Source: Rhodocyclaceae bacterium | GTDB lineage: Bacteria; Pseudomonadota; Gammaproteobacteria; Burkholderiales; Rhodocyclaceae | Direction of reading: 5' to 3' | Assembly: GCA_030824115.1 (NCBI GenBank) | Contig: JAVBYI010000021.1 | Coordinates: 1-45,319 of the forward strand | Length of the DNA: 45,319 bases | In this document: positions 2,519-45,300 of the stretch, in pieces | How the letters are laid out: every line of letters begins with the position of its first letter | Position numbering within the stretch: position 1 is the first letter of the stretch | The notes under the pieces: generated by a model | Seen by the model: only the letters and a program-made list of their open reading frames with translations | Database searches by the model: none | What the model was told of the DNA's origin: nothing | Made by a program: the position numbers and the translations under genes

Positions 2519-2543
2519 GCCGCCTTGCCAACGCCGACTTTTA
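2519..2543 (+). repeat. Interspersed 25-bp repeat, copy 1 (intergenic)
   Basis: Matches the consensus GCCGTCYYG + CCAGCGCCGACTTTT with two differences (GCCGCC at the start, CCAACG in the middle). It is preceded by CAAT, as copies 2 and 6 also are. It lies between two small convergent genes. Confidence 0.85.
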
Positions 2544-2550
2544 CAGCTGC

Positions 2551-2895
2551 CTAGAAGAGGCTGGCGACGACGAAACGATCACGGGCAGCTAGGCGGGCCA
2601 AGCCCTTTTGGGCTTCGAGCGACGCGCCCCACTTCATGATGTGCGAGAGGAAAGTCGTCAAGGCCAGCGACAGGCCATAGCCGGTTTCGCGCCATTCATC
2701 CCTGAATTCAGAGAAACTGACCGTCCGGGCCGAAAGCTTGCCGCTCTTCATGGGCACCAAGGTCACCTTGTGACCATCGTTACGAATGACAATTGCGGTA
2801 CTGCGTTGAATGTTGGTAACAACCACGGCATATCCCCCATAGGGTTTGCGGATATGCCGGGTTACGGCAGAAATGACAAAAGCTTGAGGTAACAA
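2551..2895 (-). CDS. Hypothetical protein
   Basis: Protein of up to 114 residues with no domain I recognise. Residues 24-56 have alternating hydrophobic positions (VVVTNIQRSTAIVI, then KVTLVPMKSG) that suggest beta strands. The C-terminal half is helical. The start is uncertain. The longest form uses a TTG at 2895 that abuts a GGGGG run with no spacing. A GTG at 2826 has a well-placed GGGGGA six bases upstream and would give about 91 residues. It lies 9 nt past the stop of the next minus-strand small gene, so the two may be cotranscribed. Confidence 0.55.
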   Translation of the reverse strand: MLPQAFVISAVTRHIRKPYGGYAVVVTNIQRSTAIVIRNDGHKVTLVPMKSGKLSARTVSFSEFRDEWRETGYGLSLALTTFLSHIMKWGASLEAQKGLARLAARDRFVVASLF

Positions 2896-2904
2896 CCCCC
2901 TGAT

Positions 2905-3123
2905 TCAGTGCATCCCGGCAGCGATTGAGAGCATCTTCTCGGCGCGCACGCGGCGAGCTTCATCCGGCGTCAGCCCCACCAGCGATTCGGGCGGTAGGGG
3001 CACATCCCAATGCTGCTGGAAGAGATCCACATCTTCTCCCGTATCCAAGTGGGCACGGTAGATCTTTTCCTGATAGGTAGGCGCATTTGGAAGCGCAACC
3101 AGCTCGACCGACTGGATGATCAT
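2905..3123 (-). CDS. Small hypothetical protein
   Basis: A 72-residue acidic soluble protein of unknown function. The ATG at 3123 is preceded by GAGGTG with 5 nt spacing; the upstream extension of the frame reads low-complexity sequence and is not supported. There are no membrane segments or cysteine motifs. The C-terminal LTPDEARRVRAEKMLS is predicted helical. It is followed closely by another minus-strand small gene. Confidence 0.55.
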   Translation of the reverse strand: MIIQSVELVALPNAPTYQEKIYRAHLDTGEDVDLFQQHWDVPLPPESLVGLTPDEARRVRAEKMLSIAAGMH

Positions 3124-3250
3124 GAAACACCTCGACACATGGGTTGAACAATGGTCGCTATCCTGCGCCTCAGGAAGGTCCGACTCAAGCGAAAGGAGGG
3201 AGGTAAAACCCCTGCTACTTGATGATCCCAATCCGCTAATCCGCTTGCCA

Positions 3251-3286
3251 AAGAAAAAGGGCACCTGCCAGTGGCAGGTGCCCTTT
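3251..3286 (-). terminator. Rho-independent terminator of acs
   Basis: A perfect stem of 14 bp (AAAGGGCACCTGCC paired with its complement, 3-nt loop) is followed on the minus strand by TTTTTCTTT. It starts 30 nt after the acs stop codon. Confidence 0.9.
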
Positions 3287-3315
3287 CGTTACCCTCCTCC
3301 GGTTCTTGTTCTGGA

Positions 3316-5298: not shown

Positions 5299-5501
5299 TG
5301 GGATTTTCTCCTCTCGCAATGACATGGTGAAACCAGAAACCAACCAAATTGCAGTTGGCAGTTTTTATGGATTTGCAGCTTGCCGGCCTGCCGAAACATG
5401 CACTGACCGGTCTTTTTTGAGCTTTGGAGTCTAGCCGATTATTAGAGCCAGCGGAGCTTACGTGCCACTTACGCAGGACGGATTCATACCGTTTCACGAG
5501 T

Positions 5502-5530
5502 CTGAGGATAGGCAGTCAGCCGTGTAGAAT
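5502..5530 (+). promoter_or_regulatory. Possible promoter for yqhA-like gene
   Basis: TAGAAT at 5525-5530 is a good -10 box. The -35 candidate CTGAGG, 17 nt upstream, matches the consensus poorly. The rest of the acs/yqhA divergent region (5299-5564) shows no other clear element. Confidence 0.3.
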
Positions 5531-5564
5531 TTTGCTTTTCCTTCAATCCCGTACCAGCAAACCC

Positions 5565-7649: not shown

Positions 7650-7655
7650 TCCAAT

Positions 7656-7680
7656 GCCGTCCTGCCAGCGCCGACTTTTC
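7656..7680 (+). repeat. Interspersed 25-bp repeat, copy 2 (at murI translation start)
   Basis: Full match to the consensus. It occupies positions -27 to -3 relative to the murI GTG start and so takes the place of a normal Shine-Dalgarno sequence. The sequence CCAAT just upstream is mirrored by ATTGG inside the first murI codons. Confidence 0.92.
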
Positions 7681-13853: not shown

Positions 13854-16349
13854 TCAGGTTTCACGCAATCCGGCCGTAACCGGCACCCCCCGCGCCCGGC
13901 GGGTTGCTGCCAGCCCGGCGCCCATCACACCGAAACTGCCGGCGACAATCCCGACCAGCAGGATGATCGGCGTCGGCAAATAATCCAACTGGAAAACCCA
14001 GCGCGCCAGCCCCGTCGCCATCGCGGTTGCCGCGATGCCGGCCAGCAGGCCCGCCACCCCACCCAGCGCCGCAAACTCGGCCAGCAGGGCCGCGCGCAAT
14101 TGCGCGCCTTGCGCCCCGAGCGCGCGCAAGACTGCCAACTCATGGCGACGCTCGCCAGCACTTGCCTGTAGCGCGGCATACAGCACCACGAGACCCGCCA
14201 GCAGGGCAATGCCAAACACCAGTTGCACAGCACCGATGACCTGATCGAGCGTCTCCTGAATCTGGCGCATCAGCGAGGCCACATCAATCACTGTGAGGTT
14301 CGGCAACTGCCGCACCAGATCGCTGACGACCGCCTCCTGGCCCGCTGGCAAATGGAAGCTGGTGATGTAACTGGTCGGATAGTTGTCCAAGTGGCCTTGC
14401 GGCGCAATGACAAAGAAATTCACCCGCATCGAATCCCAGTCCAGTTGCCGCAGGGAGGTGATGCGCGCCATCAAGGTCTGGCCGGCCACAGCGAATTCGA
14501 GTTCGTCGCCGATATGCAGGTTGAGGGTTTCGGCCAAGCCCTTCTCCACCGAAAACTCGGCGCTCTCGCTTACCCCATGCCAGCGCCCGGCGATCACCTT
14601 GTTGCCTTCGGGCAGATCGTTGCGTTCGGACAAGTTGAACTCGCGCTCGACCAGACGCTGCGCCCGGTCATCGACAAAATCACGGGGCACCACCGGCCGG
14701 CCATTAACCCGCACCAAACGACCGCGCACCATCGGTTCGAGGCGAGGCGGGGTCAATCCCCGCGCATTGAAAAAGTCGGCGATGGCCGGACGCTGGTCGG
14801 GCTGGATGTTGATGACAAAGCGATTCGGCGCATCGACCGGCACACGCGACCGCCACGCGCCGAGCAGATCGTCACGCGCCAGCGTCAGCAATAGCAAGGT
14901 GGTCAGCCCCAATGCCAGCGCCACTGCCTGAACCAATGAGGCATCGGCGCGCCGCCGCAGGTTGGCCAGGCCAATGCGCCAACCGCCTCTCGCCCGGACG
15001 CCCAGCACACGCCAGACACCGAATAGCAGCAGGCGACCGACCAGCGCAAAAACGGCAATCGCCACCAGGAAACCACCGAGCACCACGCTGCCCAGACGTA
15101 CATCACCGGCGATCCAGAACATCAGACCGGCCAGACAGCCCAGCCCGAGCGCGTAGGAGAGAATCGACAGCGGCGCACTGTCGCCCCATTCGCGCCGCAA
15201 CACGCGCACCGTCGGCACCGACTTGAGCCGCAACAAGGGCGGCAACACGAAGCCAACGACCAGCACCACCCCGACGGCCAGCCCGTGCACCCACGGCAAC
15301 CAACCCGGCGCCGGCAGGCGCGCGCCCACCAGTCCGGCCAGCAAGGACTGCAACAGCGTCTGGAAGCCATAGCCGAGCGCACCGCCCAGCAGCGTCGCCA
15401 TCAGCCCGAGCAGGATGAACTCGCCGCCATGAATCAACAGAATCTGTCGTTCACTCGCGCCAAGGCAGCGCATCACGGCGCAGGCATCCAGATGCGTCTG
15501 CATGTAACGCCGTGCCGCCAAGCCAACCGCCACTGCGGCCAGCACCACCGTCAGCAAGGCCGCCAAACTCAGGAAGCGCTGCGCCCGTTCGATGATGTTG
15601 CGAATTTCCGGCCGGGCATTGTCGAGCGCTTCAAGTCGTTCGCCGCGTCCCAGATTGGCCTGTGCCCAGCGCCGAAACTTCGCCACATCGGCCCCCTCGC
15701 CCGCCAGATGCAGGCGCCAGGTGATGCGACTGCCCGGCTGGATCAGCCCGGTGGCGGGCAGATCGGCCAGCGGCAGAATCAGGCGTGGCGCCAGGGAAAA
15801 TGGATTGATGCCGCGATCGGGTTCATGCGTAACAATTGCGGCCACGGCCGTCTCGCCAGCGCCGACATTTAGCCGCTGGCCGGGCGCCAGTGCCAGGGCT
15901 GCGGCCAGACGTTCATCCGGCCAGACCTGCCCCGACTTAGGCGTGCGCTCAACCCCGCTCGCCGGCCTGTCGGGCGCATTCAGTTGCGGCGCAATGCGTA
16001 ACTCACCGCGCAAGGGATAATTGGCCGACACCGCCTTGATCTCCGCCAGTTGCACGCCATCGGCCACTGACACCATGCTGGGGAAACTCGCACTCTCGGC
16101 GAACTGCAGCCCATGCTCAAGGGCCGCGCGCCGGAAGCGTTCATCCCAGGCATGATCGGCCGACAGCAGCAGATCGCCGCCGAGCAACTGGTGCGCTTCG
16201 CTCTCCACTGCCCGCTGCACGCGCTCGGCGAGGAAGCCCACACCGGTCAGCGCCGCCACCGCCAGCACCAGGGCCAGCACCAGCACATTCAGATGGCCAG
16301 CGCGCAGGTCGCGCCGCAGCATGCGGGCCGTCAGTCGAAGGGTATTCAT
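13854..16349 (-). CDS. FtsX-family ABC transporter permease (YbbP-like)
   Basis: An 831-residue inner-membrane permease like E. coli YbbP, which pairs with an ATPase YbbA. It has an N-terminal helix (about 20-42), a large periplasmic domain, several helices between about 260 and 480, a second periplasmic domain (about 500-690) and three C-terminal helices with the FtsX motif (GERRHELAVLRALGA). No ATPase gene is adjacent. Two repeat copies lie inside the gene: one encodes LNVGAGETA at 160-168, the other, more divergent, RPAIADFF near 520-528. Both sit in the periplasmic domains. Its start is 55 nt past radA, with another repeat copy in the gap. Confidence 0.9.
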   Translation of the reverse strand: MNTLRLTARMLRRDLRAGHLNVLVLALVLAVAALTGVGFLAERVQRAVESEAHQLLGGDLLLSADHAWDERFRRAALEHGLQFAESASFPSMVSVADGVQLAEIKAVSANYPLRGELRIAPQLNAPDRPASGVERTPKSGQVWPDERLAAALALAPGQRLNVGAGETAVAAIVTHEPDRGINPFSLAPRLILPLADLPATGLIQPGSRITWRLHLAGEGADVAKFRRWAQANLGRGERLEALDNARPEIRNIIERAQRFLSLAALLTVVLAAVAVGLAARRYMQTHLDACAVMRCLGASERQILLIHGGEFILLGLMATLLGGALGYGFQTLLQSLLAGLVGARLPAPGWLPWVHGLAVGVVLVVGFVLPPLLRLKSVPTVRVLRREWGDSAPLSILSYALGLGCLAGLMFWIAGDVRLGSVVLGGFLVAIAVFALVGRLLLFGVWRVLGVRARGGWRIGLANLRRRADASLVQAVALALGLTTLLLLTLARDDLLGAWRSRVPVDAPNRFVINIQPDQRPAIADFFNARGLTPPRLEPMVRGRLVRVNGRPVVPRDFVDDRAQRLVEREFNLSERNDLPEGNKVIAGRWHGVSESAEFSVEKGLAETLNLHIGDELEFAVAGQTLMARITSLRQLDWDSMRVNFFVIAPQGHLDNYPTSYITSFHLPAGQEAVVSDLVRQLPNLTVIDVASLMRQIQETLDQVIGAVQLVFGIALLAGLVVLYAALQASAGERRHELAVLRALGAQGAQLRAALLAEFAALGGVAGLLAGIAATAMATGLARWVFQLDYLPTPIILLVGIVAGSFGVMGAGLAATRRARGVPVTAGLRET
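14767..14791 (-). repeat. Interspersed repeat, divergent copy 3 (inside ABC permease)
   Basis: On the minus strand, GTCCGGCCATCGCCGAC then TTTTTC; it differs from copy 13 at two positions over 22. It is read as RPAIADFF, which could also be native protein sequence, so this is the least certain copy. Confidence 0.5.
15847..15871 (+). repeat. Interspersed repeat, copy 4 (inside ABC permease)
   Basis: GCCGTCTCG followed by CCAGCGCCGACATTTA. The permease is on the other strand and reads it as NVGAGETA. Confidence 0.9.
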
Positions 16350-16369: not shown

Positions 16370-16394
16370 GAAAAGTCGGCGTTGGCAGGACGGC
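16370..16394 (-). repeat. Interspersed repeat, copy 5 (radA/permease gap)
   Basis: On the minus strand GCCGTCCTG followed by CCAACGCCGACTTTTC. It lies in the 55-nt gap between the end of radA and the permease start. Confidence 0.9.
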
Positions 16395-16404
16395 AACCTT
16401 GAGG

Positions 16405-17769: not shown

Positions 17770-18836
17770 CAGCCCCTCACTTCAACAGCCACGCGCGGCG
17801 CCAGCGCGCAGAACAATTCGTAGCTGATCGTGCCGGCAGCCGTGGCCACTTCATCGGCTGGCAGTCCATCCCCCCATAACAATGCCGTCCCGCCAGCGCC
17901 GACATTTACATGGGTGAGATCGACGCAAAGCTTGTCCATCGACACGCGCCCCAGCGTGCGGGTGCGCTGGCCCTCGACCAGCACCGGTGTGCCGGTCGGT
18001 GCGTGACGTGGATAACCATCGGCATAACCGCAGGCCACCACGCCGATGCGCATTGGTTGGTCCGCCGTGAAGGTACAGCCATAGCCGACGCTTTCGCCAG
18101 CCGCGATTTCCTGTACGCCAATGATCTCGCTTTGCAAAGTCATCACCGGCTTCAAATCGAGGGCCGCCGCCGTGGTTTCAGCAAACGGCGAACTGCCATA
18201 GAGCATGATGCCCGGCCGTGCCCAATCGCCAACCTTGTCGGGGTAGCGCAGGATCGCCGCCGAATTGCCCAGCGAGCGAGGATGATCCATACCAGTCGTC
18301 ATTGCGGTAAATCGCGCAAACTGCCAGTCGACGCCACGCGGACCATCGGCATCGGCAAAGTGGGTCATCAGGACCAGTGGCATGCGGCTGGCCAATGCAG
18401 CCTGCGCTGCCACGATCCCGACTGCGTCAAAGCCGAGGCGGTGCATGCCGGAGTCGAGTTTCAGATACACCGGCAGATCGGCTGGCCAGTCGACCGCCAA
18501 CAGGGCCTGTACCTGATCGGCACGATGAACGACGGGAATCAGTCGATGCCGGACAAACAGCGCCAGTTCGTCAGCGTCATAGAAGCCTTCCAGCAACAGC
18601 AACGGATGTGTCAGACCGGACTGACGCAGGGCAATCGCACGTTCGAGTTCGATCAGGGCAAAACCATCGGCTTCATCAGCCAGCGCCGCCACGGCGCGCT
18701 CCAGCCCATGACCATAGGCATTCGCCTTGACCACGGCCCAGAGTTTGTTGGCTCCGACCTGGCGACGTGCCACCGCATGGTTATGCCGCAGTGCGGACAG
18801 GTCAATAATGGCGCGGATCGGCCGCGACGTATTCAT
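17769..18836 (-). CDS. alr: Alanine racemase
   Basis: PLP enzyme that makes D-alanine for the cell wall. The 355-residue form starts at ATG 18836, 14 nt past the LysR stop; an upstream in-frame start overlapping lysR is less likely. K37 in VVKANAYGHG binds PLP and Y252 in GESVGYGCTF is the second catalytic base. A repeat copy encodes NVGAGGTALL at 311-320, in the loop where E. coli Alr has a GIGTPVELWG segment. The fold is therefore probably undisturbed. It is followed directly by radA. Confidence 0.95.
17884..17908 (+). repeat. Interspersed repeat, copy 6 (inside alr)
   Basis: GCCGTCCCG followed by CCAGCGCCGACATTTA, preceded by CAAT. alr on the other strand reads it as VNVGAGGTA, in frame. 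Confidence 0.92.
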
Positions 18837-24473: not shown

Positions 24474-25696
24474 GACAGCAAGCCATCCAGCGCGATGTAA
24501 CTGACTTCATCGCCGGCACGGATCACCCCGCCGGCGGGCGTATCGATCAGCCCGTCCGCCCAGGCACAGGAACTCAGCACACCGGAGCCCTGACGCGGAT
24601 GCAACTCGACCCGGCCATCCGGCAGCAAGCGCGCACGCAGAAACTCGCGCCGCTTCGGATCGGCCTTCGGCCAGTCGGAAGCGCAGATACGACGCTGTAC
24701 CGGCAAGGGTGCTGGTGTCATGCCCATACTGCGCAGGATGAAGGGACGTACCAGGATCAGGAAGGTGATAAAGCCCGCCACCGGATTACCGGGTAAACCA
24801 ATAAAGGATGCCGTACCCGCTTCGGGGCATTTCATCTTACCAGCGCCGACTTTTCCAAAGGCAAGCGGCTTGCCTGGTTTGATCGCAATCTTCCATAGGT
24901 CGAGGCGGCCCTCGGCTTCAATGGCGGCTTTGACATGATCCTCTTCTCCGACAGATACGCCCCCCGTCGACAAAATCAGATCGTTGCTTTCCGCCGCCGT
25001 GCGCAGAGCATCCCGTGTCGCCGCCAGCGTATCTGGAATGCGGCCGAGATCGGTCACGGCACAGCCCAAGCCTTCGAGTAGCGCGTGCAGGAAATAGCGA
25101 TTGGAGTTGTAGATCGCCCCTGGCGGCAGTGGCTCACCGGGTTCCACCAGCTCATCGCCAGTCGACAGCAAGGCCACGCGCAAGCGGCGCAATACCGGCA
25201 GCGTCGCCAGCCCCACCGAGGCCGCCAAGCCAAGTTCCGCCGGGCCGAGACGCACGCCCGCCGGGAGAATTTCAACCCCGGCCAGGATGTCCTCACCGGC
25301 ACGGCGAATGTTGTCGCCCGGCTTCGGGACCGTCTGCACCGTCACTACGCCGTCGCCCGCTTCACATTTCTCCTGCATCACCACGGCATCGGCGCCCGGT
25401 GGCACGGGCGCGCCGGTAAAGATACGTGCGGCCGTGCCCGGCTGCAGCGGCTGGCCCACCGTGCCCGCCGGAATACGCTGACTCACAGGCAAGGCCACAC
25501 CGACTTGGGCCACATCCGCGCAGCGCAGCGCATAGCCATCCATCGCGCTGTTGTCGAGCGGCGGCACATGGATAGCCGAGACCTGCGCCTGCGCCAGCAC
25601 GCGACCGCGCGCGGCCACCAGTGGTACGGATTTCGTTTCAGTCACGGGTGTCGCACCCGCCAGTAGTTGTTCAAGCGCTTCTTCGTAACTCAGCAT
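24470..25696 (-). CDS. moeA: Molybdopterin molybdotransferase MoeA
   Basis: Inserts molybdenum into adenylylated molybdopterin. The 408-residue protein has the N-terminal segment VPPLDNSAMDGYA, domain III motifs (LSTGDEL, STGGVSVGEEDHV) and GLPGNPVAG. Between FGK and SFIGLPGNPV the protein carries an extra segment VGAGKMKCPEAGTA (about 282-295) that E. coli MoeA lacks. This is the interspersed repeat, interrupted in its middle by 21 nt. The loop is near the active site cleft but the flanking motifs are intact. It overlaps mobB by 7 nt and moaD by 4 nt. Confidence 0.95.
   Translation of the reverse strand: MLSYEEALEQLLAGATPVTETKSVPLVAARGRVLAQAQVSAIHVPPLDNSAMDGYALRCADVAQVGVALPVSQRIPAGTVGQPLQPGTAARIFTGAPVPPGADAVVMQEKCEAGDGVVTVQTVPKPGDNIRRAGEDILAGVEILPAGVRLGPAELGLAASVGLATLPVLRRLRVALLSTGDELVEPGEPLPPGAIYNSNRYFLHALLEGLGCAVTDLGRIPDTLAATRDALRTAAESNDLILSTGGVSVGEEDHVKAAIEAEGRLDLWKIAIKPGKPLAFGKVGAGKMKCPEAGTASFIGLPGNPVAGFITFLILVRPFILRSMGMTPAPLPVQRRICASDWPKADPKRREFLRARLLPDGRVELHPRQGSGVLSSCAWADGLIDTPAGGVIRAGDEVSYIALDGLLS
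24810..24856 (+). repeat. Interspersed repeat, split copy 7 (inside moeA)
   Basis: The left part GCCGTACCCGC (24810-24820) and the right part CCAGCGCCGACTTTTC (24840-24855) match the two ends of the consensus. They are separated by extra bases that amount to exactly 21 nt, seven codons, so KVGAG-GTA becomes KVGAG-KMKCPEA-GTA. Confidence 0.75.
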
Positions 25697-26187: not shown

Positions 26188-27263
26188 GCTGTCACCACTT
26201 TCGCAAACCCGCCACCCGGCGTTCTGAAGTTCGTCGTCTGCCCCTGATACAAGCGAGCCGTAACAAACTGGACGGCGCCACGATACACATAGTTGCGCAC
26301 GTCCGCCTTGAGTTGCGTCAGTTCGCCAGCAACAGTCACAGGGAAAGTCGAAGGCAAGGCCAGCGCCTGGGCGACATAATCGCCGGCAAGAATCTCCTCG
26401 AACACACGCTTGGTCAGCTTGTCGCCACGATACGTTCCCTTCGAGCCATAGCCTGCGACCGGCTTGAAAAAAAGCTGGCGGCGCCGCTGCCAGAAATCAT
26501 CGGCACGCGCTGGCGTCACCGCCTCGGTGCGTGGAATACCTGCCATCAGGACTGCACGTGTCGCAGCAGCTACACCCCACTCGGTCAGCAGCGCCTCATC
26601 GGTCAGGGCGATCAGGTTCCGCTTGTCGGCATAGCGCGCATGATGTGTCGGGTTGGGCGTGATCACCGCACCCTGCCGCCAAGCCTCGCGCAGCACCGCA
26701 TGTGCAGGCTCCTCGAAAGCGAAGTCGGTCAGCCGGTTATAGACGAGATCAACCTTCGTCTCCTCATGCCAGAGGTTGCCGTGACAAAGCACCAGTTCGG
26801 CCGGATCACAAACCACTGCTGCGATGCCATGCGCCGCGAACAACTGCCGGAAACCGAGAAATTCCGGGTAGAGATACTGAGCCTCCGGCGCCGCATCAAC
26901 GATAGCGATGGCCTTCAATTCACCCGGACATTCCGCGCGGAACATGGCGACGTAGGCAGCCAACACATCCTCGCGCCCAGCCTGCCAGGCGGCAAGCAAG
27001 CCACCGCCGGCATTGGTGTTGATCTCAATCAGTTGCGGGCCAGTCTCGGTCAGATGGAAGTCGTAGCCCATGAACACGCCAGACGGTGCCATCCCGCCAG
27101 CGCCGACTTTTGCTTCCCACTGCGGCAAGGCAATTACCGATTCGATAGCCGCAATGATGGCGGCCATGCGTTCAAGATCAGCCTGTGAAATCGAAACAGT
27201 CGCTGCGGAAAACAGATGCGGCCGTTCGGCCAGCAGTGCCTCCGGCAAGTCCAACGGCATCAT
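26184..27263 (-). CDS. ATP-grasp-like conserved protein of unknown substrate
   Basis: A 359-residue soluble protein. The segments VFMGYDFHLTETGPQLIEINTNAGGG (residues about 63-88), TPNPTHHARYADKRNLIALTDE, FFKPVAGYGSKGTYRGDKL and the C-terminal LKADVRNYVYRG with NFRTPGGG look like ATP-binding and metal-binding parts of an ATP-grasp enzyme. The INTNAGG part sits near the N-terminus, which suggests a permuted order. Residues 52-59 (KVGAGGMA) come from a repeat copy. It overlaps the hemerythrin kinase upstream and mobB downstream by 4 nt each. A ligase or peptide-modifying role is only a guess. Confidence 0.75.
   Translation of the reverse strand: MMPLDLPEALLAERPHLFSAATVSISQADLERMAAIIAAIESVIALPQWEAKVGAGGMAPSGVFMGYDFHLTETGPQLIEINTNAGGGLLAAWQAGREDVLAAYVAMFRAECPGELKAIAIVDAAPEAQYLYPEFLGFRQLFAAHGIAAVVCDPAELVLCHGNLWHEETKVDLVYNRLTDFAFEEPAHAVLREAWRQGAVITPNPTHHARYADKRNLIALTDEALLTEWGVAAATRAVLMAGIPRTEAVTPARADDFWQRRRQLFFKPVAGYGSKGTYRGDKLTKRVFEEILAGDYVAQALALPSTFPVTVAGELTQLKADVRNYVYRGAVQFVTARLYQGQTTNFRTPGGGFAKVVTA
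27088..27112 (+). repeat. Interspersed repeat, copy 8 (inside ATP-grasp-like gene)
   Basis: GCCATCCCG followed by CCAGCGCCGACTTTTG. The gene on the other strand reads it as KVGAGGMA between a helix and the conserved VFMGYDF strand. Confidence 0.92.
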
Positions 27264-28582: not shown

Positions 28583-28583
28583 G

Positions 28584-30140: not shown

Positions 30141-31201
30141 GATGTTTCACCGGGAATATGATCGATCGGCAGGAGGATGCGAAACGTGGTGCCGCGCCCA
30201 GGTTCGCTGTTGACCTCGATGTGGCCGCCATGTTTTTCAATGATGCCATAGGAAAGCGCGAGACCAAGGCCGGTGCCCTTGCCGACCGGCTTGGTCGTAA
30301 AAAATGGATCGAAGATTTTATTGAGTGTTTCCCCTGACATACCGGAACCATTGTCGGTCACCTCAACCCACGCTGCGCCATCAGCCGTGCCGCAGCTCAG
30401 GGTGATGGTGCCGTGCCGGTTATCGGGCATGGCCTGCGCGGCATTGACGAGAAGATTAAGGAACACCTGGTTGATCTGCGAGGGAATACATTCGACCAAT
30501 GGCATCTCGCCATACGCTTTCACTACGTCGGCACGATACTTGATCTCGTTCTGCACAATATTCAGGGTGGAATCAAGGCCGGTGCGCAGATCGACCCGTT
30601 CCCAGGCCTGCGTGCTGTCCGCCCGCGAAAAATCCTTCAGGTCCTGGACGATACGGCGTACCCGCTCGGTGCCTTCGCACGACTCGGCCAGCAGCGCGGG
30701 AATGTCCTCCCGGAGATATTCGAAATCAACCTCCTTCTTGAGTATTTCCAGTTCCGTCATCCACGCCGCGCCACCGGGGCCGAGGCCGGCCACCACTTCG
30801 GGTGCAGGCTCGAAATGCTCCAGCAGGCGCAGCAACCGCTCGAAGTAGTGCCCAAGGGATTTCATGTTCGAATGCACGAAACCAATCGGGTTATTGATTT
30901 CGTGGGCCACGCCGGCGGCCAGCTGGCCGATCGAGGCCATCTTCTCCGATTGCATCAGTTGCCGCTGGGCCATTTCGAGCTCCTTGATGAGTGTTTCCTG
31001 CGCAATCTTCTCCCCACGCAGCGAGCGGTTGCGCTCGGTCAGTTCGCCCAGCATCAACTCCATGGAACGCTCACGCAAAGCGCGATCCTCATCAGCCGCC
31101 TGGTAGGCGGCATCGACCGCCTGGACGAAATTGCGCCACTCATCGGGCACCGCTTCGCCGTTCCGGTGACGCCGCAACTGCCTTTCCAGAAGTGGATGCA
31201 T
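30137..31201 (-). CDS. Soluble histidine kinase
   Basis: A 354-residue cytoplasmic kinase without a recognised sensor domain. The first 80 residues are helical and probably form a coiled coil. H100 in GVAHEINNP is the phosphorylation site. The ATPase part has [23 protein letters not shown] and [15 protein letters not shown]. It starts directly after the FIST gene stop (TGAATG), so FIST may serve as its sensory partner. Its catalytic half is closely similar to that of the next kinase (32353-34077), pointing to a duplication. Confidence 0.93.
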
Positions 31202-32332
31202 TCAGTCCTCGGCAAAAGTGGTGATGGTCATGGTCTGGTTGTGCAACTCGCAACGCGCGGTCGGCGTGTAAGGCGATATTTCGCCGTAGGAATAGAAGCC
31301 CGTCAATACCGGGTGCGGCCCGAGGACGTGGCGCACCCCTTCGACCTCCTCCTCAATGCGCTGCTTCAGCACCAACCGACGGCCGACACAGGAAATCAGC
31401 AGCGCCAGGGATGCCTCACCATTCAGTCCAACGCAGGCCGCATCGGCAGCCCCAATCGCGCCATCGATGAGGCGGTCGAAATTCGCCTTCATCATGCGCG
31501 CGTACATGCCTTCCGGCATGTCGCCGGCGAAAGTCATCGATTGATCGTTCTCGTTCACCGCCAGGATCGTACGCACCAGGCCAAGATCGCCCAGTTCGGG
31601 ATCGCGCAGCGCGAGGGGAAACAACAGACCCGTTGCCGGCAGACCAGCCGCGTGCTCGCCAAGGTAACGCTTGTAGAGGGCCAGCGCCGGTTCGCCGTCA
31701 AGTTCGTAGAGAACATTGCCGCGTGCACGCGTGATCAACCGGTCGACGCCGAAAGCGTCCCAGCCGCCCAGCGAGCCGTGGCCGACACGCAGTCGTTTAC
31801 CATACAGGCCGATCGCGGCGACACGGCCGGCGTGCGGCGACAACTCGCCAACCACCACGGCAGTGTGGGCAAAACGTGTACCGTCGCCAGCCAGTCCGCC
31901 GGTAACCGCCACGCCCCCGGGCAGGCTGTCGCGCAGACCGGCCGCCAGTTCAGACCCATTGACCACCAGTCCGTCGGAAAAAACCAGCACATGGACAAGA
32001 TCGGGAGCCATCAGCCGAGTGCCGAGAGAGCGGCCGGCCTCCCGGCTAGCGGCGGCATCGGTCACATCCGCATGTTCGACACGCACACACGTGTCGGCAA
32101 ACGAGATCGCGGTCGCCACGACGCTATCGTCATACACCCGCTCGTCGAGAATCTCGCCTGCGGTCGTACAGCCCACCAGCGCCGCGCTGGGGAACATGAC
32201 GCGCAACTCGGCGCATCGCGCCGCGTCGAGCACCGCACCGGTGCCGAACACCAGCACCAGCGTCGCGGCCGGATCAGCCACAACCGGCTGCCAGCCTTTC
32301 TCGTGAATCCATTGGCATTGCGTCGTTTTCAT
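31202..32332 (-). CDS. FIST-domain sensory protein
   Basis: A 376-residue soluble protein with FIST N (about 20-220) and FIST C (about 225-360) domains, a pair proposed to bind small ligands such as amino acids and often linked to two-component systems. Seen features are ALVGCTTAGEI near 50-60, GGLAGDG near 150 and the C-terminal GFYSYGEISPY followed by LHNQTMTI. The ATG at 32332 has AGAGGGA 5 nt upstream. It lies between two related kinases and abuts the downstream one with no gap. Confidence 0.92.
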   Translation of the reverse strand: MKTTQCQWIHEKGWQPVVADPAATLVLVFGTGAVLDAARCAELRVMFPSAALVGCTTAGEILDERVYDDSVVATAISFADTCVRVEHADVTDAAASREAGRSLGTRLMAPDLVHVLVFSDGLVVNGSELAAGLRDSLPGGVAVTGGLAGDGTRFAHTAVVVGELSPHAGRVAAIGLYGKRLRVGHGSLGGWDAFGVDRLITRARGNVLYELDGEPALALYKRYLGEHAAGLPATGLLFPLALRDPELGDLGLVRTILAVNENDQSMTFAGDMPEGMYARMMKANFDRLIDGAIGAADAACVGLNGEASLALLISCVGRRLVLKQRIEEEVEGVRHVLGPHPVLTGFYSYGEISPYTPTARCELHNQTMTITTFAED

Positions 32333-32352
32333 GATGTCCCTCTCACTGTTTT

Positions 32353-34077
32353 TCAGGCACAGCAACGCGCGTGCGTAATTGGCAACACAACGCGGAAGGT
32401 CGTGCCAATGCCAAGTGCGCTGTCCACCTCGATGCGGCCGCTGTGCTTCTCGACGATACCGTAGGAAAGGGAGAGGCCGAGGCCGGTACCCTTGCCGACC
32501 GGCTTGGTGGTAAAGAAGGGGTCAAATATCTTCTTGCGGGTTTCCTCGCTCATGCCCGCGCCGTTGTCGGTCACCTCGACCCAGGCCTCATTACCGGCGC
32601 TGCCACAGCGCAGCGTGATCGTGCCGCGCCGGCCTTCCGGCATTGCCTGCGCGGCGTTTACCATCAGGTTCATGAACACTTGATTGATCTGCGAGGCGAT
32701 ACATTCGACGGGCGGTATCGTGCCGTACTCCTTTACCACGTCGGCCTTGTATTTGATCTCATTGAGGACAATATTAAGCGTTGAGTCGAGGCCCGCGCAC
32801 AGGTCCGTCCGTTCCCAGCGCTGTTCGCTATCCACACGCGAAAAATCCTTGAGGTCCTGAACGATACGGCGCACCCGTTCAGTCCCCTCGCGCGACTCGG
32901 CCAACAGCGCGGGAATGTCCTCCTTGAGAAATTCGAAATCAGCCTCGGCCTTGAGTGCCTCGACCTCGGCCACCCAGTTCCTGCCGGCCTCGCCGGTACC
33001 CGCGATGAGCTCGCGGTGTCCCTCGAAATGTTCCAGCACCTGCAGGAGGCGCGAAAAGTAATGTTCAAGCGAACCCATGTTCGAATGCACGAAACCGATC
33101 GGGTTGTTGATCTCGTGCGCCACGCCGGCGGCAAGCTGGCCGATCGAGGCGAGCTTTTCCGACTGCATCAGTTGCCGCTGCGCCTCGGCCAGCTGGCCGG
33201 TGCGCTTCTTCACCAGTTCCTCCAGTTCGCTCTGGTGGCGGACCAGCGCTTCCTCGGCACGGCGGCGGTCGGAAACATCCTGCAATGTCTCGATCGCGCC
33301 GATCACGCGGCCGTTGCCGCCGGTCAGCGGCGCGGCGGTGAAGTAGAGCCAGCAGCCGTTGTCGCCAAAGGCAGGGAAATAGTCTTCCGCCTCGTAGGCG
33401 TCCGCAATAAAAGGGGAGCGCGTCAGGCGCTTGTCGCGGTAGTGCGCGCGCAGTTGCTCGGTGGTCGCGCCGTCGACGATGAGATCGGCCATGGTTGGCC
33501 GCCCGGTAGCGTAAAAAATGTGGCGGTGGCCGTCCGTGCCAACGATCTCGTCGGCCGTCTTGCCGGTAATTTCCTGGCAGGCGCGGTTCCAGTGCGTGAC
33601 CAGGTGGCGGTCATTGATGACGAAGGCGGGCACCGGGCTGCCGTCGACGATCTGCGCCAGCAGGGTCTGGAGCCGTTTCTGGCGCGTCTCGGCCTGCTTG
33701 CGCGCGCTGATGTCGCGCAGGATGCCGACGAACTCGCGCCGCTCACCGTCGCGCATCTCGGTGACGCTCAGCTCGACGGGAATCGTCGTACCGTCCGCAT
33801 GGCGGGCGAGAACCTCGCGGCCGATACCGATGATGCGTGCCTCGCCCGTGTTCAGGTAATGATTCAGGTAGCCGTCGTGAGCGCTGGCGTGAGGCTCGGG
33901 CATCAGCATGCTGACGTTGCGGCCTATCAATTGCTCGCGTGGATATCCAAGCAGGCGCTCGGTGGCCGCATTGGCGGACTGGATCAGCCCGCACGCGTCG
34001 ATGGCGATGACACAGTCAAGCATCGCGTCGAGGATGGTGTGGATGCGAGCTTCACTCGCTGTAGTAGGAAGGGTCAC
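32353..34077 (-). CDS. PAS-PAS histidine kinase with FixL-like sensor
   Basis: A 574-residue soluble kinase. I place the start at GTG 34077, with AGGAG 6 nt upstream; the frame stays open further but reads an Arg-rich non-conserved stretch. The first PAS domain (about 10-130) has the FixL pattern: [12 protein letters not shown], then AHDGYL with H67 at the haem-ligand position, then RIIGIGREV with R87. The FixL arginine six residues after the ligand is H73 here. A second PAS (about 135-270) precedes a coiled coil and HisKA with H321, then a complete HATPase domain. Oxygen sensing is plausible but the motif also occurs in PAS domains without proven haem. Confidence 0.92.
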
Positions 34078-34261
34078 AGCGAACTCCTGGTAAAAACTTC
34101 TGCGATCGCATTGACGGCGCCGAGTGCGCCGAGCATCGACGCCAAACTGGCAAAACCTTGAATCCAAGTAAAGGGGCAACCAATCGGCAGCACCCCTTAC
34201 AAACAGTACTTTTGATATAAATTATGCCACGACATCACTCATCAGTTTCCCGTGGGTGTAT

Positions 34262-35569
34262 TCATGATTTTTCAAAAATCGGCGCTGGTGAGACGGCAGC
34301 GGCGTCAGTTTCAGGCGGTTCCACCGGCAGGGTAATCGTAAAGGTCGTGCCCTTGCCCTCCTCGCTGGTCACCTCGATCCTGCCAGCGTGCTTTTTGATG
34401 ATGCCCCAGGTAATCGAGAGGCCAAGCCCTGTCCCCTTGCCCACCGGCTTGGTGGTGAAAAAAGGTTCGAAGAGGCGGTTCATGTGCTCGGGCTGAATGC
34501 CCTTGCCAGTATCCGAAATCCTGATCTGTACCGTATCAGCATCCAGCGTAGAGGTACTGATGACGATCTCACCCTTGGTCTCAATCGCCTGTGCCGCATT
34601 CACCAGCAGGTTCATGAACACCTGATTAAGTTGTGCGGCCAGACAACGCACCTGCGGCAACTCGCCATACGACTTCTTGACGGTACATTTGTACTTGAGT
34701 TCATTCCAGACGATGTTCAGGGTCGACTCGATGCCCTGGTTCAGGTCGGCCCATTGCCACTCTGTCTCACCGGGACGCGAGAAATCCTTCAAGTCCTGGA
34801 CAATCTTCTTCACACGCTGCAAGCCTTCGACCGACTCCGCCAGCAGTTGGTAGATGTCAGTCTTGATGTAAGCAAAGTCCTTTTCCATCTTGATGGCCTG
34901 GATACGTGCAAAATCTTCAGGATTTCCCGCCTCGGTGGCCGCCGCCTCGCACACTGCCGCGATCTGAAAGATATCGTCGATATACGTCTTCAGCGTCCCC
35001 AGATTGCTATGCACGAAGCCGATCGGGTTGTTCAGTTCGTGCGCCACCCCGGCGGCAAGCTGGCCGATTGACGCCATCTTTTCCGACTGCAGCAACTGGT
35101 TATGCGCCTCGGTCAGCTTGAGGTTCAGTGTCTTGGCCTCGGTCAGCGCCCGCTGCAGCGTCTCCTCGGTTTTCTTGCTCCTGTCGATATCACGCACCAC
35201 GGCCAGCACCCGCTGTTCGCCATTGAGCGTAATCATCTTGAGATTCACGGCCACCCAAAAATGCCGATCCTGGCTATCACGCGCCAGCCACTCGAAAGCC
35301 TCCCACCCCTTCTGCATGCAGTGCTCCATCAGCGTCTGCACCTCCATCAGCGTATAGGGCGGCACATTGGCGCTGATCCGGGGGATATCGAGCACCAGCA
35401 GTTGCTCGCGCGTGTAGCCATACATGGCGCAGGCACGGGCATTCACATCGAGAACTTGGCCCGAGGTCGGATCATGCACAAAAATGGCATCGTTGATCGC
35501 ATCGTAGATGATGCGGAACCTGTCATCACTGGCAGCCAGGAGTGGGGAATGCATGTCTGTCCCGGTCAT
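34262..35569 (-). CDS. PAS histidine kinase
   Basis: A 435-residue soluble kinase. One PAS domain (about 15-130; GYTREQLLVLDIPR) is followed by a coiled coil, HisKA with H177 in GVAHELNNP and HATPase with [14 protein letters not shown] and [15 protein letters not shown]. The kinase core is a paralogue of the two neighbours downstream. The last residues AVSPAPIF (425-432) come from a repeat copy just before the stop, past the folded ATPase domain. GGGGGAG lies 6 nt before the ATG. A 184-nt AT-rich gap separates it from the FixL-like kinase. Confidence 0.93.
   Translation of the reverse strand: MTGTDMHSPLLAASDDRFRIIYDAINDAIFVHDPTSGQVLDVNARACAMYGYTREQLLVLDIPRISANVPPYTLMEVQTLMEHCMQKGWEAFEWLARDSQDRHFWVAVNLKMITLNGEQRVLAVVRDIDRSKKTEETLQRALTEAKTLNLKLTEAHNQLLQSEKMASIGQLAAGVAHELNNPIGFVHSNLGTLKTYIDDIFQIAAVCEAAATEAGNPEDFARIQAIKMEKDFAYIKTDIYQLLAESVEGLQRVKKIVQDLKDFSRPGETEWQWADLNQGIESTLNIVWNELKYKCTVKKSYGELPQVRCLAAQLNQVFMNLLVNAAQAIETKGEIVISTSTLDADTVQIRISDTGKGIQPEHMNRLFEPFFTTKPVGKGTGLGLSITWGIIKKHAGRIEVTSEEGKGTTFTITLPVEPPETDAAAVSPAPIFEKS
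34273..34297 (-). repeat. Interspersed repeat, copy 9 (C-terminus of PAS kinase)
   Basis: On the minus strand GCCGTCTCA followed by CCAGCGCCGATTTTTG. It forms codons near the end of the PAS kinase gene, read as AVSPAPIF, three codons before the stop. Confidence 0.88.
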
Positions 35570-35586: not shown

Positions 35587-35611
35587 TAAAAGTCGGCGCT
35601 GACAGGACGGC
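35587..35611 (-). repeat. Interspersed repeat, copy 10 (between kinase genes)
   Basis: On the minus strand GCCGTCCTG followed by TCAGCGCCGACTTTTA. It lies in the 107-nt gap upstream of the PAS kinase, with AAAAGCC/GGCTTTT-like AT-rich flanks. Confidence 0.9.
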
Positions 35612-35676
35612 AAGGCTTTTTCCCTGCAGCGAGCGCCGGGAGTCGTCACCTTGCAGGGAAGTCAACTCCTGGGAAT

Positions 35677-38600: not shown

Positions 38601-39648
38601 GCAGACTGGGAGAATGATCGGGGGCAAGCGCCTGGACCGCCAGCACGCCTCCCATTGCCAGCGGAATCCGTTTGAGCAAAGCCGTCTGCTGCTCATGACG
38701 CAACTCATTCAGGAACAGCACCGCATCCCCATCGCGCCGGATCAGCAGTGTTTCAGCCGTCTGGCTGGGCACCGGCCAGGATTGCAGGAAGGTATACAGC
38801 GTCGAGCTTACATCGGCGCGCAGGACGATGACAGCGGATATCGCTTTTCCTGGCTCGGCCACAATCGGTGCCACAAAATCGAGATGAATGTGTGCCGGGG
38901 CTGGCGTCTCCATGCGATACAGTTCCGTCATGCGTATTTCACCAGCCGTCACGGCCTGCCGGATCGTGTCACGCAAGGATGCCGGCACCGTATGCCCGGA
39001 GAACCCTGTCTCCAACAGGGCATTACCTTGTGTATCGCAGATCATGACGCCGGTGTGTTTCATGGAAGAGCGAAACATCTCAAGGCGCGACATAAGCCGT
39101 TTGCGCACCTCGGCATCACCGCTTTTTCGCCACTGCGGCAGGTCATCGCGCAACAGCGGTGCCGTTCTCACCACCTCGGCATCGCGGTGACGCTCACTGA
39201 TCCAGGTTTCGATCTGGGTCGCCTTCAGTTCGGCGATGGCCGCCAGTTGCTCATGGGCGGAGTGCTGGTGATAGCGCAGGTTTTGCATGATGCCGCCAAC
39301 CCCGAGCAGGGCGAACACGACCGAGAGCAGCACGATACCGATGATCAGCCCGCGTCGCGGGGCGGGCAGTGCCGTCTCGCCAGTCCCGACTTTTACAGCC
39401 CCGGCCTGCTGCGGCACCACAAAGTGCAGGATCAGCAGAAACAGCAGCAGCGAGGTGACAGAAACAAAAACCAGGCCCTTGAGAGTATTGGCCGCCTGAA
39501 TTCCCTGTGTATCGCTGAACATCAAGGCGACGGCACGATCGGAGAGCAGAATCCACAGCGTGGCAAACAGCGCGTAAAGGAGAACGACTTGTGCAATCGA
39601 ATGCAGTGTCTCACGTGGCAGCGAACGGATCGACATGCCGATCTTCAT
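35677..39648 (-). CDS. Large membrane hybrid histidine kinase (Cache-like, PAS-PAS, REC, Hpt)
   Basis: A 1323-residue sensor. Two N-terminal helices (about 17-38 and 57-78) are joined by a linker with the repeat peptide KVGTGETA (86-93) to a third helix (101-120). A large periplasmic Cache-like region runs to about 395, and a fourth helix ends near 418. Two PAS domains follow (about 435-560 and 565-690, the second with [33 protein letters not shown]). HisKA has H721 in SHEIRTP, the HATPase has [11 protein letters not shown], the receiver has D1033 in [11 protein letters not shown] and the Hpt has H1183 in AHALRGVAA. All phosphorelay residues are present. It overlaps the upstream REC-GGDEF-EAL gene by 4 nt. 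Confidence 0.94.
39371..39395 (+). repeat. Interspersed repeat, copy 11 (inside hybrid kinase)
   Basis: GCCGTCTCG followed by CCAGTCCCGACTTTTA. The kinase on the other strand reads it as KVGTGETA in the linker between two membrane helices. Confidence 0.9.
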
Positions 39649-42200: not shown

Positions 42201-42252
42201 GGCGACAGGCGTGGTATGAGGAATGAGTTGTATCCTACTCCGCTAAAGTTAT

Positions 42253-42277
42253 GCCGTCCCGCCAGCGCCGACTTTTT
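42253..42277 (+). repeat. Interspersed repeat, copy 12 (divergent intergenic region)
   Basis: Perfect consensus: GCCGTCCCG followed by CCAGCGCCGACTTTTT. It is centred in the 117-nt gap between the divergent REC-GGDEF-EAL and solute-binding kinase genes. AAAGT and ACTTT flank the GC-rich core as an inverted pair. Confidence 0.95.
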
Positions 42278-42317
42278 CAGATGCTGAACGCCGGCGACAG
42301 GTATAGACTCCCGCATC

Positions 42318-45300
42318 ATGAAAAAGTGGTTTGTCATTGCGCTGATCGTCCTTCTGGCCGGGCCATGGCTCTTCGGCACAGGAGATCGTCACACGACCGG
42401 TGCGCGTACCGTAACGGTCGGTTTTTATGAAAACGCGCCGAAAATCTTTACCACCGCCAGCGGCAAGCCCGCCGGCCTGTTCGTCGAGCTGATCGAGGCG
42501 GTTGCCAGGGCCGAACACTGGCAGTTACGCTACATCCCCTGCGACTGGGCGGACTGTCTGACGAAACTGGCTGCGGGGGAAATCGATCTGATGCCGGATG
42601 TTGCCTTTTCGGCCGAGCGCGCGCAAAAGTTCGACTTCCACCGTTTCTCGATCGCCAACAGCTGGTCGCAGGTGTATTCCCATCCTGATCTGGTCATCCA
42701 GGGCCTGAATGATCTCGCCGGCATGCGCGTCGCCCTGCTGGAAGGCGGCATTCAGCAGAAGTATCTGGCGCAATTGCTGCAAAGCAGCAATATTCCTTAT
42801 CAAATGGTGCCGGTCGGTAATCTGGATGCCGGGTATCAGGCGGTCGTTGATGGCAAAGCCGATGCGGTCGTCACCAACAGTTTTTTTGCGGCACGCAATG
42901 GCGACAAGTACCGGTTGCTTGAAACCCCGATTGTCTTCCTGCCCTCGACACTCTATTTCGCCGCCAACAAGGGCGCCAATGCCGATCTTCTGACCCGCAT
43001 CGACGCCCATCTGATCGACTGGCGTCGCGATGCCGACTCGATCTACTTCGATGCCCTGCATCGCGCCATGGCCGCGCCACCCGAAGTGCTGGTGCCACGC
43101 TGGGCCAAATGGTCACTGCTCGGTCTGTTCATCGGCCTGTTGCTGCTCGGCGGCATCAGCCTGCTGCTGCGCCGCCAAGTGGAGATGCGCACGCGGGAAT
43201 TGCGCCATACCGCAGAAGAGTTGCAAATCCAGCGCGACAATCTCGAACACATAGTTGCTGCCCGCACCGCCGAACTCATGGCGGCCAAGGAGGAAGCCGA
43301 ACGCCTGACGCGCGTCAAAAGCGACTTCCTCGCCAACATGAGCCATGAGATCCGCACGCCGATGAACGCCATTCTCGGCATGCTCTATCTCGCCCTGAAA
43401 GGCGAACTTTCGGCGAGCTTGCGCAACCAGCTTTCCAAGGCCCAGGGCGCCGCCCATTCCCTGCTCGGCATCATCAACGACATCCTTGACTTCTCCAAGA
43501 TCGAAGCTGGCAAGCTGGATATCGAAGCCGTCGAGTTTGGTCTCGACACGGTACTCGAACAACTGGCCGATGCCGTCGGCTATCAGGCCGAAAGCAAAGG
43601 CATCGAATTCCTCATCCGTTACGATCCGGCGATTCCGTCGCGTCTGATCGGCGACCCGTTACGCCTGGGCCAGATCCTGCTCAACCTGTGTGGCAATGCC
43701 GTCAAGTTCACCGAGCATGGCGAAGTGGAACTCGCCTTCCAGTGCCTGAATGCCCACGAAGCCGACATCACCATCCAGGTGTGCGTGCGCGACTCCGGCA
43801 TCGGCATGAGCCCGGAAGCGCAACAAAAAATGTTCGAGAAATTCACCCAGGCCGACCAGTCCACCACCCGGCGTTTCGGCGGTACCGGTCTTGGCCTCGC
43901 CATCAGCAAAAATCTCATCGGCCTGATGGACGGCCGCATCTGGGTCGAGGATTCGCAACCCGGCAAGGGCAGCACGATCTGCTTCACCGTCAAGTTGCAA
44001 ATCGCCCAACAGGCCCAGGCACGCCAGCGCGAACTGGTGGAACAGGCCGGGCCATTGCTCAAAGGCATCCGCGTGCTGGTAGTGGATGACAACGAAGTCT
44101 CGCGCGCGATCCTGGCCGAGATACTGAGTTTCTTCCGCCTTGACGTCAGCACCGCGCACAATGGCACCACCGCCCTGGCCGCCCTGCAGGCGGCAGAAGC
44201 ATCCCCCTACGATCTGGTGCTGATGGACTGGCGTATGCCCGGCATGAATGGCGATGAAGCGACCCGGCGCATTCATGCTGACAGCACCCTGGTGCACAAA
44301 CCCAAGGTCGTGATGGTCACCGCCTATGGCCGCGAAGATGTGATCCGCCTGTCGGAACAGGCCGGCGTGGATGGTTTCCTGATCAAGCCGGTGTCGCCAT
44401 CGACACTGCTCGACACGATCCTGTCCGTCCTCGGACGCGGCCGCATTTTTGGCACCGATGGCCCGGACGGACGCCGTCCGGCCAGCGCCGACATTTCCTT
44501 CAGCGGCAAACTGGCCGGCGCGCGCCTGCTGCTGGTCGAGGATAACGACATCAACCGCGAGTTCGCCCGCGAACTCCTCAAGAGCGAAGGTATCGAGGTG
44601 GATGAGGCCGAGAACGGTGCCATCGCCGTCGCCAAGGTGCAGCAAAAGGATTACGACGGCGTGCTGATGGACATCCAGATGCCGGTAATGGATGGCCTCG
44701 ATGCGGCCCGCCACATCCGCGCGCTGGCCGAACAGCCGGGTGGCGAACGTTTTGCCACGCTGCCGATCATTGCCATGACAGCCCTCGCCATGGCGCAGGA
44801 TGCCGAGAAGACCCAGGTCGCCGGCATGAACGATCATGTCACCAAACCGATTGCACCGGATCGCCTGATGGCCGCACTGGCACGCTGGATCAAGCTCCCC
44901 GTCGAGAGAGCGGACCGCCCGGCGGCCATCAGCCCAACATCACCAGCAGCGGACGACAGCTTCCCGGCTGATCTGGCCGCGCTGACCAGCATTGAGGCCC
45001 GCGAAGGGGTACGCCGCATCGGCGGCAAGGAAGATGCCTACCGCAAGCAGTTACGCCGTTTCCGCGAACATTACCCGAATGCCATTAACGAACTGCGGCA
45101 ACTGATCGCTACCACTGGGGCACTGAAGGCCGAGGAGTACTGCCATGCACTCAAGGGCGTCACCGGCAATCTGGGCGCCCACGCCCTGTACGACCGGATC
45201 GCCGCGATCGACCAGGCACTGAAACAGGAAGAAGTACCGGGGGATGCCCTGCTCGATGAGGCAGCGACACAACTGCAACAGGTGATGCGCGAAATCGACG

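Follow-up and report, generated by a model that had tools for sequence, protein, structure and literature searches.

A 25-bp repeat in the window and its genome

The window analyzed here is a stretch of 45,319 nucleotides from a Rhodocyclaceae bacterium (contig JAVBYI010000021.1), in which a repeat of 25 bp is interspersed both inside and between the genes. The repeat belongs to a real genome-wide family, with approximately 740 copies in the genome of which the window is a part (G000; 2,999,174 bases in 24 contigs). The initial annotation had extrapolated from the window to something on the order of a thousand copies, an estimate that was right about the abundance and too high in the number. 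Allowing two mismatches, we find 379 forward and 370 reverse matches in G000 (749 in all), compared with 3 + 6 = 9 for the reversed pattern, and a 23-column pattern with up to three mismatches gives 371 + 370 = 741, compared with 0 + 2; the word is hence far more frequent than composition predicts. A weight matrix applied to 445 kb of the same genome detects 98 sites of at least 8 bits vs. one in the reversed sequence. The scores are bimodal with few intermediates, and 83 of the 98 sites score at least 28. Within the window itself, the 15-base core CCAGCGCCGACTTTT has 18 matches with up to three mismatches, and 100 dinucleotide shuffles of the window give a mean of 1.87 and a maximum of 5.

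Alignment of 55 copies, taken from the window and from 30 further loci, results in the consensus Y-GCCGTC-YY-G-CCAGCGCCGAC(T/a)TTT. The unit has sharp edges, and the bases that flank it carry almost no signal. Its length is the 25 bp originally annotated, and the pattern as written at that time left out the preceding pyrimidine (T or C). Measured over 150 copies, the 25-bp unit contains 37.4 bits of information.

Thirteen places had been listed in the window, nine in the plus and four in the minus orientation. All were found again and twelve of them hold as members; our own gene calls also reproduce the division into five between genes and eight inside. Those between genes are located at 2518..2542 (plus; TGCCGCCTTGCCAACGCCGACTTTT), where the orthologous place in the relative G011 has no copy and unrelated bases; at 7655..7679 (plus), between the fumarase and racemase (murI-like) genes; at 16371..16395 (minus), in the gap beside radA; at 35588..35612 (minus), in the gap upstream of a histidine-kinase gene; and at 42252..42276 (plus), upstream of a GGDEF-EAL gene. 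The fumarase/racemase gap carries a copy in 15 of 16 aligned genomes of the same genus (the one in G016 is weak, in a dialect spelling) and none in G005; this comparison omits G010 and G018, where the gap itself did not align.

Among the copies inside genes, four are antisense to the gene that contains them. The copy at 15846..15870 (plus), in an FtsX-domain gene, is identical in G011 and missing in five more distant relatives, each of which has another copy approximately 100 bp off. The one at 17883..17907 (plus), in the alanine racemase gene, is retained in G011, G002, and G013, and the one at 39370..39394 (plus), near the 5′ end of a large hybrid-kinase gene, has a consensus copy at the G011 ortholog. 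The fourth is positioned at 44472..44496 (plus), in the gene at 43659-44837. A further copy occupies the 3′ end of the above-mentioned histidine-kinase gene (34274..34298, minus), and that at 27087..27111 (plus), inside the gene at 26184-27263, corresponds to a long form with 21 extra bp in G011. The window has a long form of its own at 24809..24854 (plus), inside a moeA-like gene. This is the copy that was initially described as "split": the left half (24809-24813) and the right part (24835-24854) are separated by a precise 21-bp insert (TACCCGCTTCGGGGCATTTCA; 24814..24834, plus), and G011, the closest relative read, has the short form at this site.

The remaining place, at 14771..14795 (minus) inside the FtsX-domain gene, had been annotated as a divergent copy. 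Its matrix score, 27.3 bits, is lower than that of any of the other 12 places, and the variation among relatives is of the kind that protein sequence would show, with an aligned flank of Q-x-P-A-I-A-D-F in the FtsX-domain protein. Conserved protein sequence is probably the better explanation of this site, and for these two reasons we do not count it as a member.

Two other regions of the window deserve mention. A gene for a large serine recombinase (Resolvase, Recombinase, and zinc ribbon domains) occupies positions 403-2017 and overlaps the end of a tRNA-Asn gene (1942-2017, other strand). The repeat is absent from the first 2.5 kb of the window, possibly the margin of an integrated element. 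The region 27260-35569 contains four copies of a sensor-kinase region, with two of its repeat families (D1 and D2) 64 to 83% alike, and is, to judge from these similarities, a locally duplicated set of kinase genes.

Placement and distribution of the word

The placement of the repeat relative to genes was analyzed in six stretches (the window, C1 and C22 of G000 and three stretches of G011), using sites of at least 19 bits and genes called with a simple home-made gene caller. The low-GC stretches of C1 at 73.4-115.3 and 220-310 kb were masked, the second mask being wider than the copy-poor "desert" that it covers. Of the pooled sites, 153/225 lie fully inside genes and 72/225 (32%) are intergenic or at a gene edge, where 9.1% would be expected (P = 6e-22). 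The pooled count mixes orthologous sites of two genomes; taken separately, G000 has 44/142 (31%) such sites vs. 8.3% expected (P = 9e-15) and G011 28/83 vs. 10.3% (P = 7e-9). Inside genes all three codon phases are used on both strands, phase 2 being the commonest (107/153), and 89 copies are antisense compared with 64 sense (binomial p = 0.052). The use of both strands and of every phase, together with the placement, implies that the word is selected as DNA and not as peptide or transcript. A protein repeat is rejected on the same grounds, and the proposal that these bases might be conserved in relatives purely as protein sequence does not hold for the copies as a class.

The copies also track base composition. 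Over 62 ten-kb segments of G000, copy number correlates with GC content (Spearman 0.56, p = 2e-6): the 19 segments with GC <0.59 hold 19 copies and the other 43 segments 126 (p = 3e-6). Two deserts in C1 (73.4-115.3 and 240.3-309.7 kb) contain 2 copies vs. 30.3 expected; the corresponding P-value of 3e-11 is overstated because the deserts were picked as apparently empty, a fault from which the GC comparison is free. Both deserts have lower GC and a lower coding fraction by the host codon table. A Pfam search of 10 proteins, out of 45 called genes >500 bp in both stretches, gave matches to a phage-type integrase, a Mu-type transposase, an SbcC-like protein, and an RND efflux pair in the first desert, which looks like a mobile island. 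In the second, the matches were to ABC transport, HMGL-like, polysaccharide, and B12-radical-SAM genes, and this stretch is island-like by composition only. "Acquired" DNA is thus judged here from GC content and a few mobile genes, not from gene trees.

Counting the word in relatives, as the initial annotation had proposed, separates two classes of genome. With up to three mismatches, 57 of 395 genomes of the family have at least 63 matches (55 of them >100) and the other 338 have at most 24. In the rest of the order (386 genomes outside the family), the maximum is 6 matches with up to two mismatches. High counts are found in 18/19 genomes of the window's genus, in 22/22 genomes of g2 (one with only 63), and in all genomes of g9 (1), g62 (1), g69 (1; 107 matches), g70 (4), and g88 (9), and in one of the two genomes of g47 (69 matches). 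Sulfuritalea, Rugosibacter, and Rhodocyclaceae metagenome-assembled genomes are among the exact matches listed; the NCBI taxonomy places Sulfurisoma and Rugosibacter in the Sterolibacteriaceae. The spelling of the word differs between genomes at columns 1, 6, 7, 16, 21, 22, and 25, that is, the family has dialects: G016 uses CGCCGCCcCGCCaGCGCCGAGTTTc, G017 has a final c, and g9 has an A at column 16. Apart from G000 and G017, these dialects rest on 5 to 27 copies per genome.

The copy-poor G005 is a member of the window's genus, with 5 matches in 2.3 Mb and none in the 80 kb read. A k-mer search of 56 kb for another over-represented word in this genome gave nothing convincing, the one word noted being a GC-rich palindromic 12-mer with 6 counts over both strands (3 places). 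In a tree of RadA (29 rows of 30 genomes, omitting the truncated row of G016), G005 falls on a long branch among eleven carriers of its genus (95/99 support), a position that would mean loss of the motif system. Carriers, labeled at 50 copies so that the intermediates G277 and G064 are included, need four changes in this tree; ten forks are open and the branches of G005, G110 (whose row is a distant second copy), G025, and G023 are long. Moreover, radA of G000 and G011 groups with other genera, and the tree is therefore not a species tree and the placement of G005 is weak.

With respect to radA itself, RadA of G000, G011, and the g9 genome G026 is 95 to 96% identical (measured from G000), compared with 82 to 86% between G000/G011 and the other same-genus carriers read, and it is possible that radA has been exchanged between carriers of different genera. 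In G110, radA is split in two, and the approximately 22 kb that separate the pieces include a more distant radA-like copy (72%; C1:2298032-2321073), possibly an island that was inserted in radA and brought its own copy of the gene.

Local arrangements of the word were noted elsewhere. In G001, core copies lie 54 bp apart at C1:566170-566400, 580735-580803, 590701-590823, and 644197-644265, which looks as though an 18-codon tandem repeat had picked up the word. Small clusters of copies are present in the otherwise motif-poor genomes G428 (C3:24185-30943; L444), G475 (C34; L446), G688 (C55; L445), and G070; these are candidates for DNA imported from a carrier. In a viral collection, 93 stretches have the exact core and at least three copies are found in 14 of the 80 loci read. 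The viral-classed contigs L355, L364, L415, and L426, which might represent phage or host DNA alike, have five or six copies; in L364, four copies follow at 316-bp steps and the fifth 385 bp further.

Orthologous sites and rival explanations

Three roles had been suggested for the repeat at the outset: a DNA uptake signal, a binding site of a chromosome-organizing protein, and a micro-mobile element. The first of these fits best. By analogy with known systems, the family probably consists of DNA uptake sequences, longer than the two well-known kinds and unrelated to them, in a Rhodocyclaceae/Sterolibacteriaceae lineage, a reading that agrees with the strand balance, the dialects, the permissive positions, the scarcity in island-like DNA, and the block differences between orthologous sites.

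The main rival is that a cytoplasmic chromosome-organizing or replication/repair protein (e.g., a nucleoid protein or a condensin loader) binds the copies, which would be kept evenly along the chromosome. Their spacing is indeed more even than random: in the window and in C1 outside the two deserts, which the test leaves out, 89 gaps range from 525 to 11,533 bp with a mean of 3,658 bp (3.66 kb) and a coefficient of variation of 0.70 (simulated P = 0.0004; Kolmogorov-Smirnov test, p = 0.076). There is no regular local array, in keeping with the original remark that the copies are neither tandem nor of the CRISPR type. Sampling the complete, one-contig genome of G017 (20 samples of 20 kb, 400 kb in total) reveals copies in 18/20 samples, none in 2/20, and no evident gradient along the chromosome. 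Placement at the level of DNA, independent of protein or RNA, and a low frequency in low-GC stretches would also be expected of such sites. However, FtsK-orienting, matS, and parS sites show polarity or domain restriction, and neither ori/ter polarity nor a regional restriction is found here. G017 and G000 both lack a strand bias: in G017 the G-rich strand carries 39 copies and the C-rich strand 36 (p = 0.82), and in G000 the count is 379 vs. 370. Furthermore, 37 bits is far above the approximately 22 bits that we estimate to be needed in 3 Mb, and a word that changes dialect within one genus, is patchy over genera and is nearly absent from G005 would be unusual for a housekeeping function. 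We keep this explanation as a serious rival and regard it as unlikely.

Somewhat less likely still is a micro-mobile element with present or past insertion by an encoded transposase, the 46-bp long form being the complete element. The relevant data come from orthologous sites in one genome pair, G000 and G011, compared over high-scoring segment pairs of at least 78% identity. Alignment succeeded for 93 copies (47 of G000 and 46 of G011, with most loci entering from both sides) and failed for 138 (101 and 37). The partner genome has a copy in 83/93 rows, and 10/93 score as empty. The ten comprise two long/short forms, three rows in which the copies have opposite orientations (two loci), one alignment edge, and four clear absences. 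Together with a third flipped locus (C1 415898), which is among the rows scored present, this makes three loci at which the two genomes carry overlapping or neighboring copies in opposite orientations. Under the uptake reading, such loci would be permissive spots that have been reused; a mobile element, too, might leave this pattern.

The long form would also suit a mobile element. Among 186 right halves with up to one mismatch in the six stretches, five have no adjacent left half. In two of them, a 21-bp insert, TACCC(GCTTC or CATGC)GGGGCATTTCA, separates GCCG from TC; the other three are a chance-like site, the G011 counterpart of the doubtful site at 14771, and a half motif opposite C22 51419. 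At the three long-form sites that can be aligned, the partner has the short form in the same orientation. The insert has two alternative stem-loop-like centers, CCCGCTTCGGGG or CCCCATGCGGGG, and comes and goes within the motif; in addition to 24814-24834 in the window, it was noted in C7 and C43 of G011 and in L108, L133, and L202. Twenty-one bp corresponds to two helical turns and to seven codons, and the relevance of either is speculation.

The four clear absences (window 2518, G011 C43 11475, G011 C43 50097, and G000 C22 51419) bear directly on insertion. The site at C43 50097 speaks for it, being 18 bp longer than the empty site with flanks that are 93% identical; however, none of the four (0/4) is a clean 25-bp insertion. 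At C22 51419 the partner retains the right half only, and the copy at 2518 of the window differs from G011 in a block-like manner, with 48% identity over the 25 bp and 79% in the flanks. Hence, the comparison of orthologous sites that had been called for did yield absences, and these are block-like, at few sites in this single pair. In 56 of the 83 rows with both copies there is no length change over the site and 30 bp on each side, and the seven loci inspected show no target duplication. A dyad is lacking in the short form, 153/225 copies outside the masked stretches lie inside genes, and the dialects differ coherently between genomes, which the copying of one element does not predict. Collectively, these observations disfavor the mobile-element role. 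Over the aligned pair, identity is 0.842 in the copy, 0.766 in the adjoining 25 bp, and 0.85 to 0.88 further out. The word thus occupies small permissive pockets and is more conserved than the sequence right beside it.

A self/non-self mark for a recombination or defense nuclease, like Chi although long, would account for a word that marks DNA of typical GC content and is scarce in low-GC stretches. Chi-like marks are short and polar to replication, whereas the present copies are non-polar and 25 bp long, and we consider this explanation highly improbable. A Chi/KOPS-like polar site as such is ruled out by the strand counts in G017. Finally, a conserved peptide or RNA element (a repeated protein motif or a transcript structure) can practically be dismissed: the preference for phase 2 and the slight antisense excess would suit it, but both strands and all phases are used, 72/225 sites are outside genes, two copies show no stable fold, and there is no Rfam match in the window except a tRNA. 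The two short window copies fold as single strands with -0.7 and -0.5 kcal/mol, and 152/200 and 174/200 shuffles, respectively, fold at least as well; in accordance with the initial description, there is no notable internal dyad. A terminator or RNA element is ruled out by this lack of a fold and by the presence of copies on both strands.

The uptake reading and known uptake systems

Should the family serve in DNA uptake, the 25-bp word would let a predicted type IV pilus receptor favor same-species DNA during natural transformation. A surface protein might read the word as double-stranded DNA, after which the tagged DNA would enter through ComEC. Copies would then spread and persist through recombination of tagged fragments, in the way reported for Neisseria and Haemophilus; the copy-poor G005 may have lost the system. 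The fuller version of this model, to which we give somewhat less than an even chance, is that of an independent uptake language whose password, at 25 bp the longest known to us, would have evolved in the Sulfurisoma-Rugosibacter branch and split into dialects, and would work without a canonical ComEA by way of a predicted receptor.

Where tested, the family matches the published properties of uptake sequences. The DNA uptake sequence (DUS) dialects of Neisseria follow phylogeny and have a fixed CTG core (PMC3630211). DUS occupy permissive parts of the core genome, are themselves conserved, and are missing from recently acquired genes, and many new DUS are too divergent from the homologous sites for point mutation, which points to an origin by recombination (PMC2397512). 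Both in Haemophilus and in Neisseria, uptake sequences are depleted from acquired segments and from coding sequence (PMC7811141), and reading frames contain one orientation more often than the other, with no such bias over the genome as a whole (PMC2346458). The present word resembles the DUS of Neisseriaceae, which number hundreds to thousands of copies, in its abundance on both strands, in and between genes, its dialects, and its permissive placement (PMC3630211, PMC2397512), and in its scarcity in acquired-type DNA and, at a few sites of one genome pair, its block-like differences (PMC2397512). It differs from them in being 25 bp and not 10 to 12 bp long, in lacking an invariant CTG core (CTG is present at columns 8-10 in 37/150 copies), in its lower density (approximately one copy per 4 kb, compared with the 1,892 DUS of N. 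meningitidis), in having no close inverted pairs among the gaps measured (the smallest is 525 bp), in having no ComP assigned to it, and in the failure to find canonical ComEA in most of the carriers tested. With the uptake signal sequence (USS) of Pasteurellaceae, it shares a core plus an AT-rich part and the under-representation in coding and acquired DNA (PMC7811141).

By sequence, the family is neither DUS nor USS, the words of both being at or below background. In 630 kb, the DUS 10-mer GCCGTCTGAA occurs 2 times vs. 1 in the reversed control, the USS core AAGTGCGGT 1 time vs. 5, and the USS core ACAAGCGGT 3 times vs. 15. Shared ancestry with the Neisseria DUS through GCCGTC was considered and rejected (chance 0.047). 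As to other abundant repeats, HIP1 of cyanobacteria is likewise a very abundant interspersed word on the chromosome, but it is an 8-bp palindrome and the present word is 25 bp without a dyad. REP/RAYT, Correia, and similar repeats are also short and interspersed; they are palindromic and mostly intergenic, and the present family is neither, although its rare long form has a short hairpin-like insert.

The machinery for natural transformation is in part present. ComEC is found above the family cut-off in 55/61 relatives, including 19/20 carriers, and the carrier without it, G018, is an 83% complete genome. A minor-pilin operon, adjoined by what we take to be ispH- and ileS-like genes, is present in the four same-genus carriers read (G000, G001, G002, and G017) and in G005; the minor-pilin match in G011 lies elsewhere.

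Several observations, however, weigh against uptake. The ComP-like family PF16732 is present in 18/20 carriers and also in 35/41 other genomes (53/61 in total); as it occurs in both classes, and as G005 keeps both ComEC and the pilin operon, no competence gene tested tracks the motif. ComEA is above the TIGR00426 cut-off in 0/19 genomes of the window's genus, and with PF12836, 11/13 carriers tested have no short ComEA-like protein over the cut-off. Nine of these 11 match only in an open frame of 795 to 1000 aa, presumably Tex-like (two of the nine have a further match below the cut-off), and the other two have no match; a ComEA candidate of approximately 200 aa is seen only in two g88 genomes. 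Short ComEA-like matches are present in 3/5 non-carriers tested, and therefore ComEA, if anything, goes with the non-carriers. Either another periplasmic protein takes its place, or ComEA of the carriers is too diverged for the models, or the uptake reading is wrong. In addition, the Neisseria DUS has only about half the length of the motif, with a resemblance that barely exceeds chance (P = 0.047), and the loss in G005 relies on one conflicting gene tree. We also know of no carrier that is transformable, and the literature searched, as far as it was surveyed, contained no report of one. Most subscription journals and all preprints were outside this search, which likewise returned no paper linking uptake sequences with Rhodocyclaceae or Rhodocyclales and no occurrence of AAAAGTCGGCGCTGG. 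Nor was the motif reported there; papers with CCAGCGCCGAC were unrelated, as judged from the title and the start of the abstract.

Uptake passwords have so far been described for Neisseriaceae and Pasteurellaceae. If the present family is indeed one, it would be another betaproteobacterial system, with an unrelated sequence of twice the length, and comparing the systems would indicate which of their features are general. It would predict natural transformation in genera for which we found no report, and would thereby offer a genetic handle for them. The word would also be a cheap marker of imported DNA, with islands appearing as motif deserts. If its function is not uptake, 740 copies of a 37-bit site still require a DNA-binding protein that is as yet unknown. 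For finding the receptor that the uptake reading predicts, the dialects and the motif-poor G005 would provide natural comparisons.

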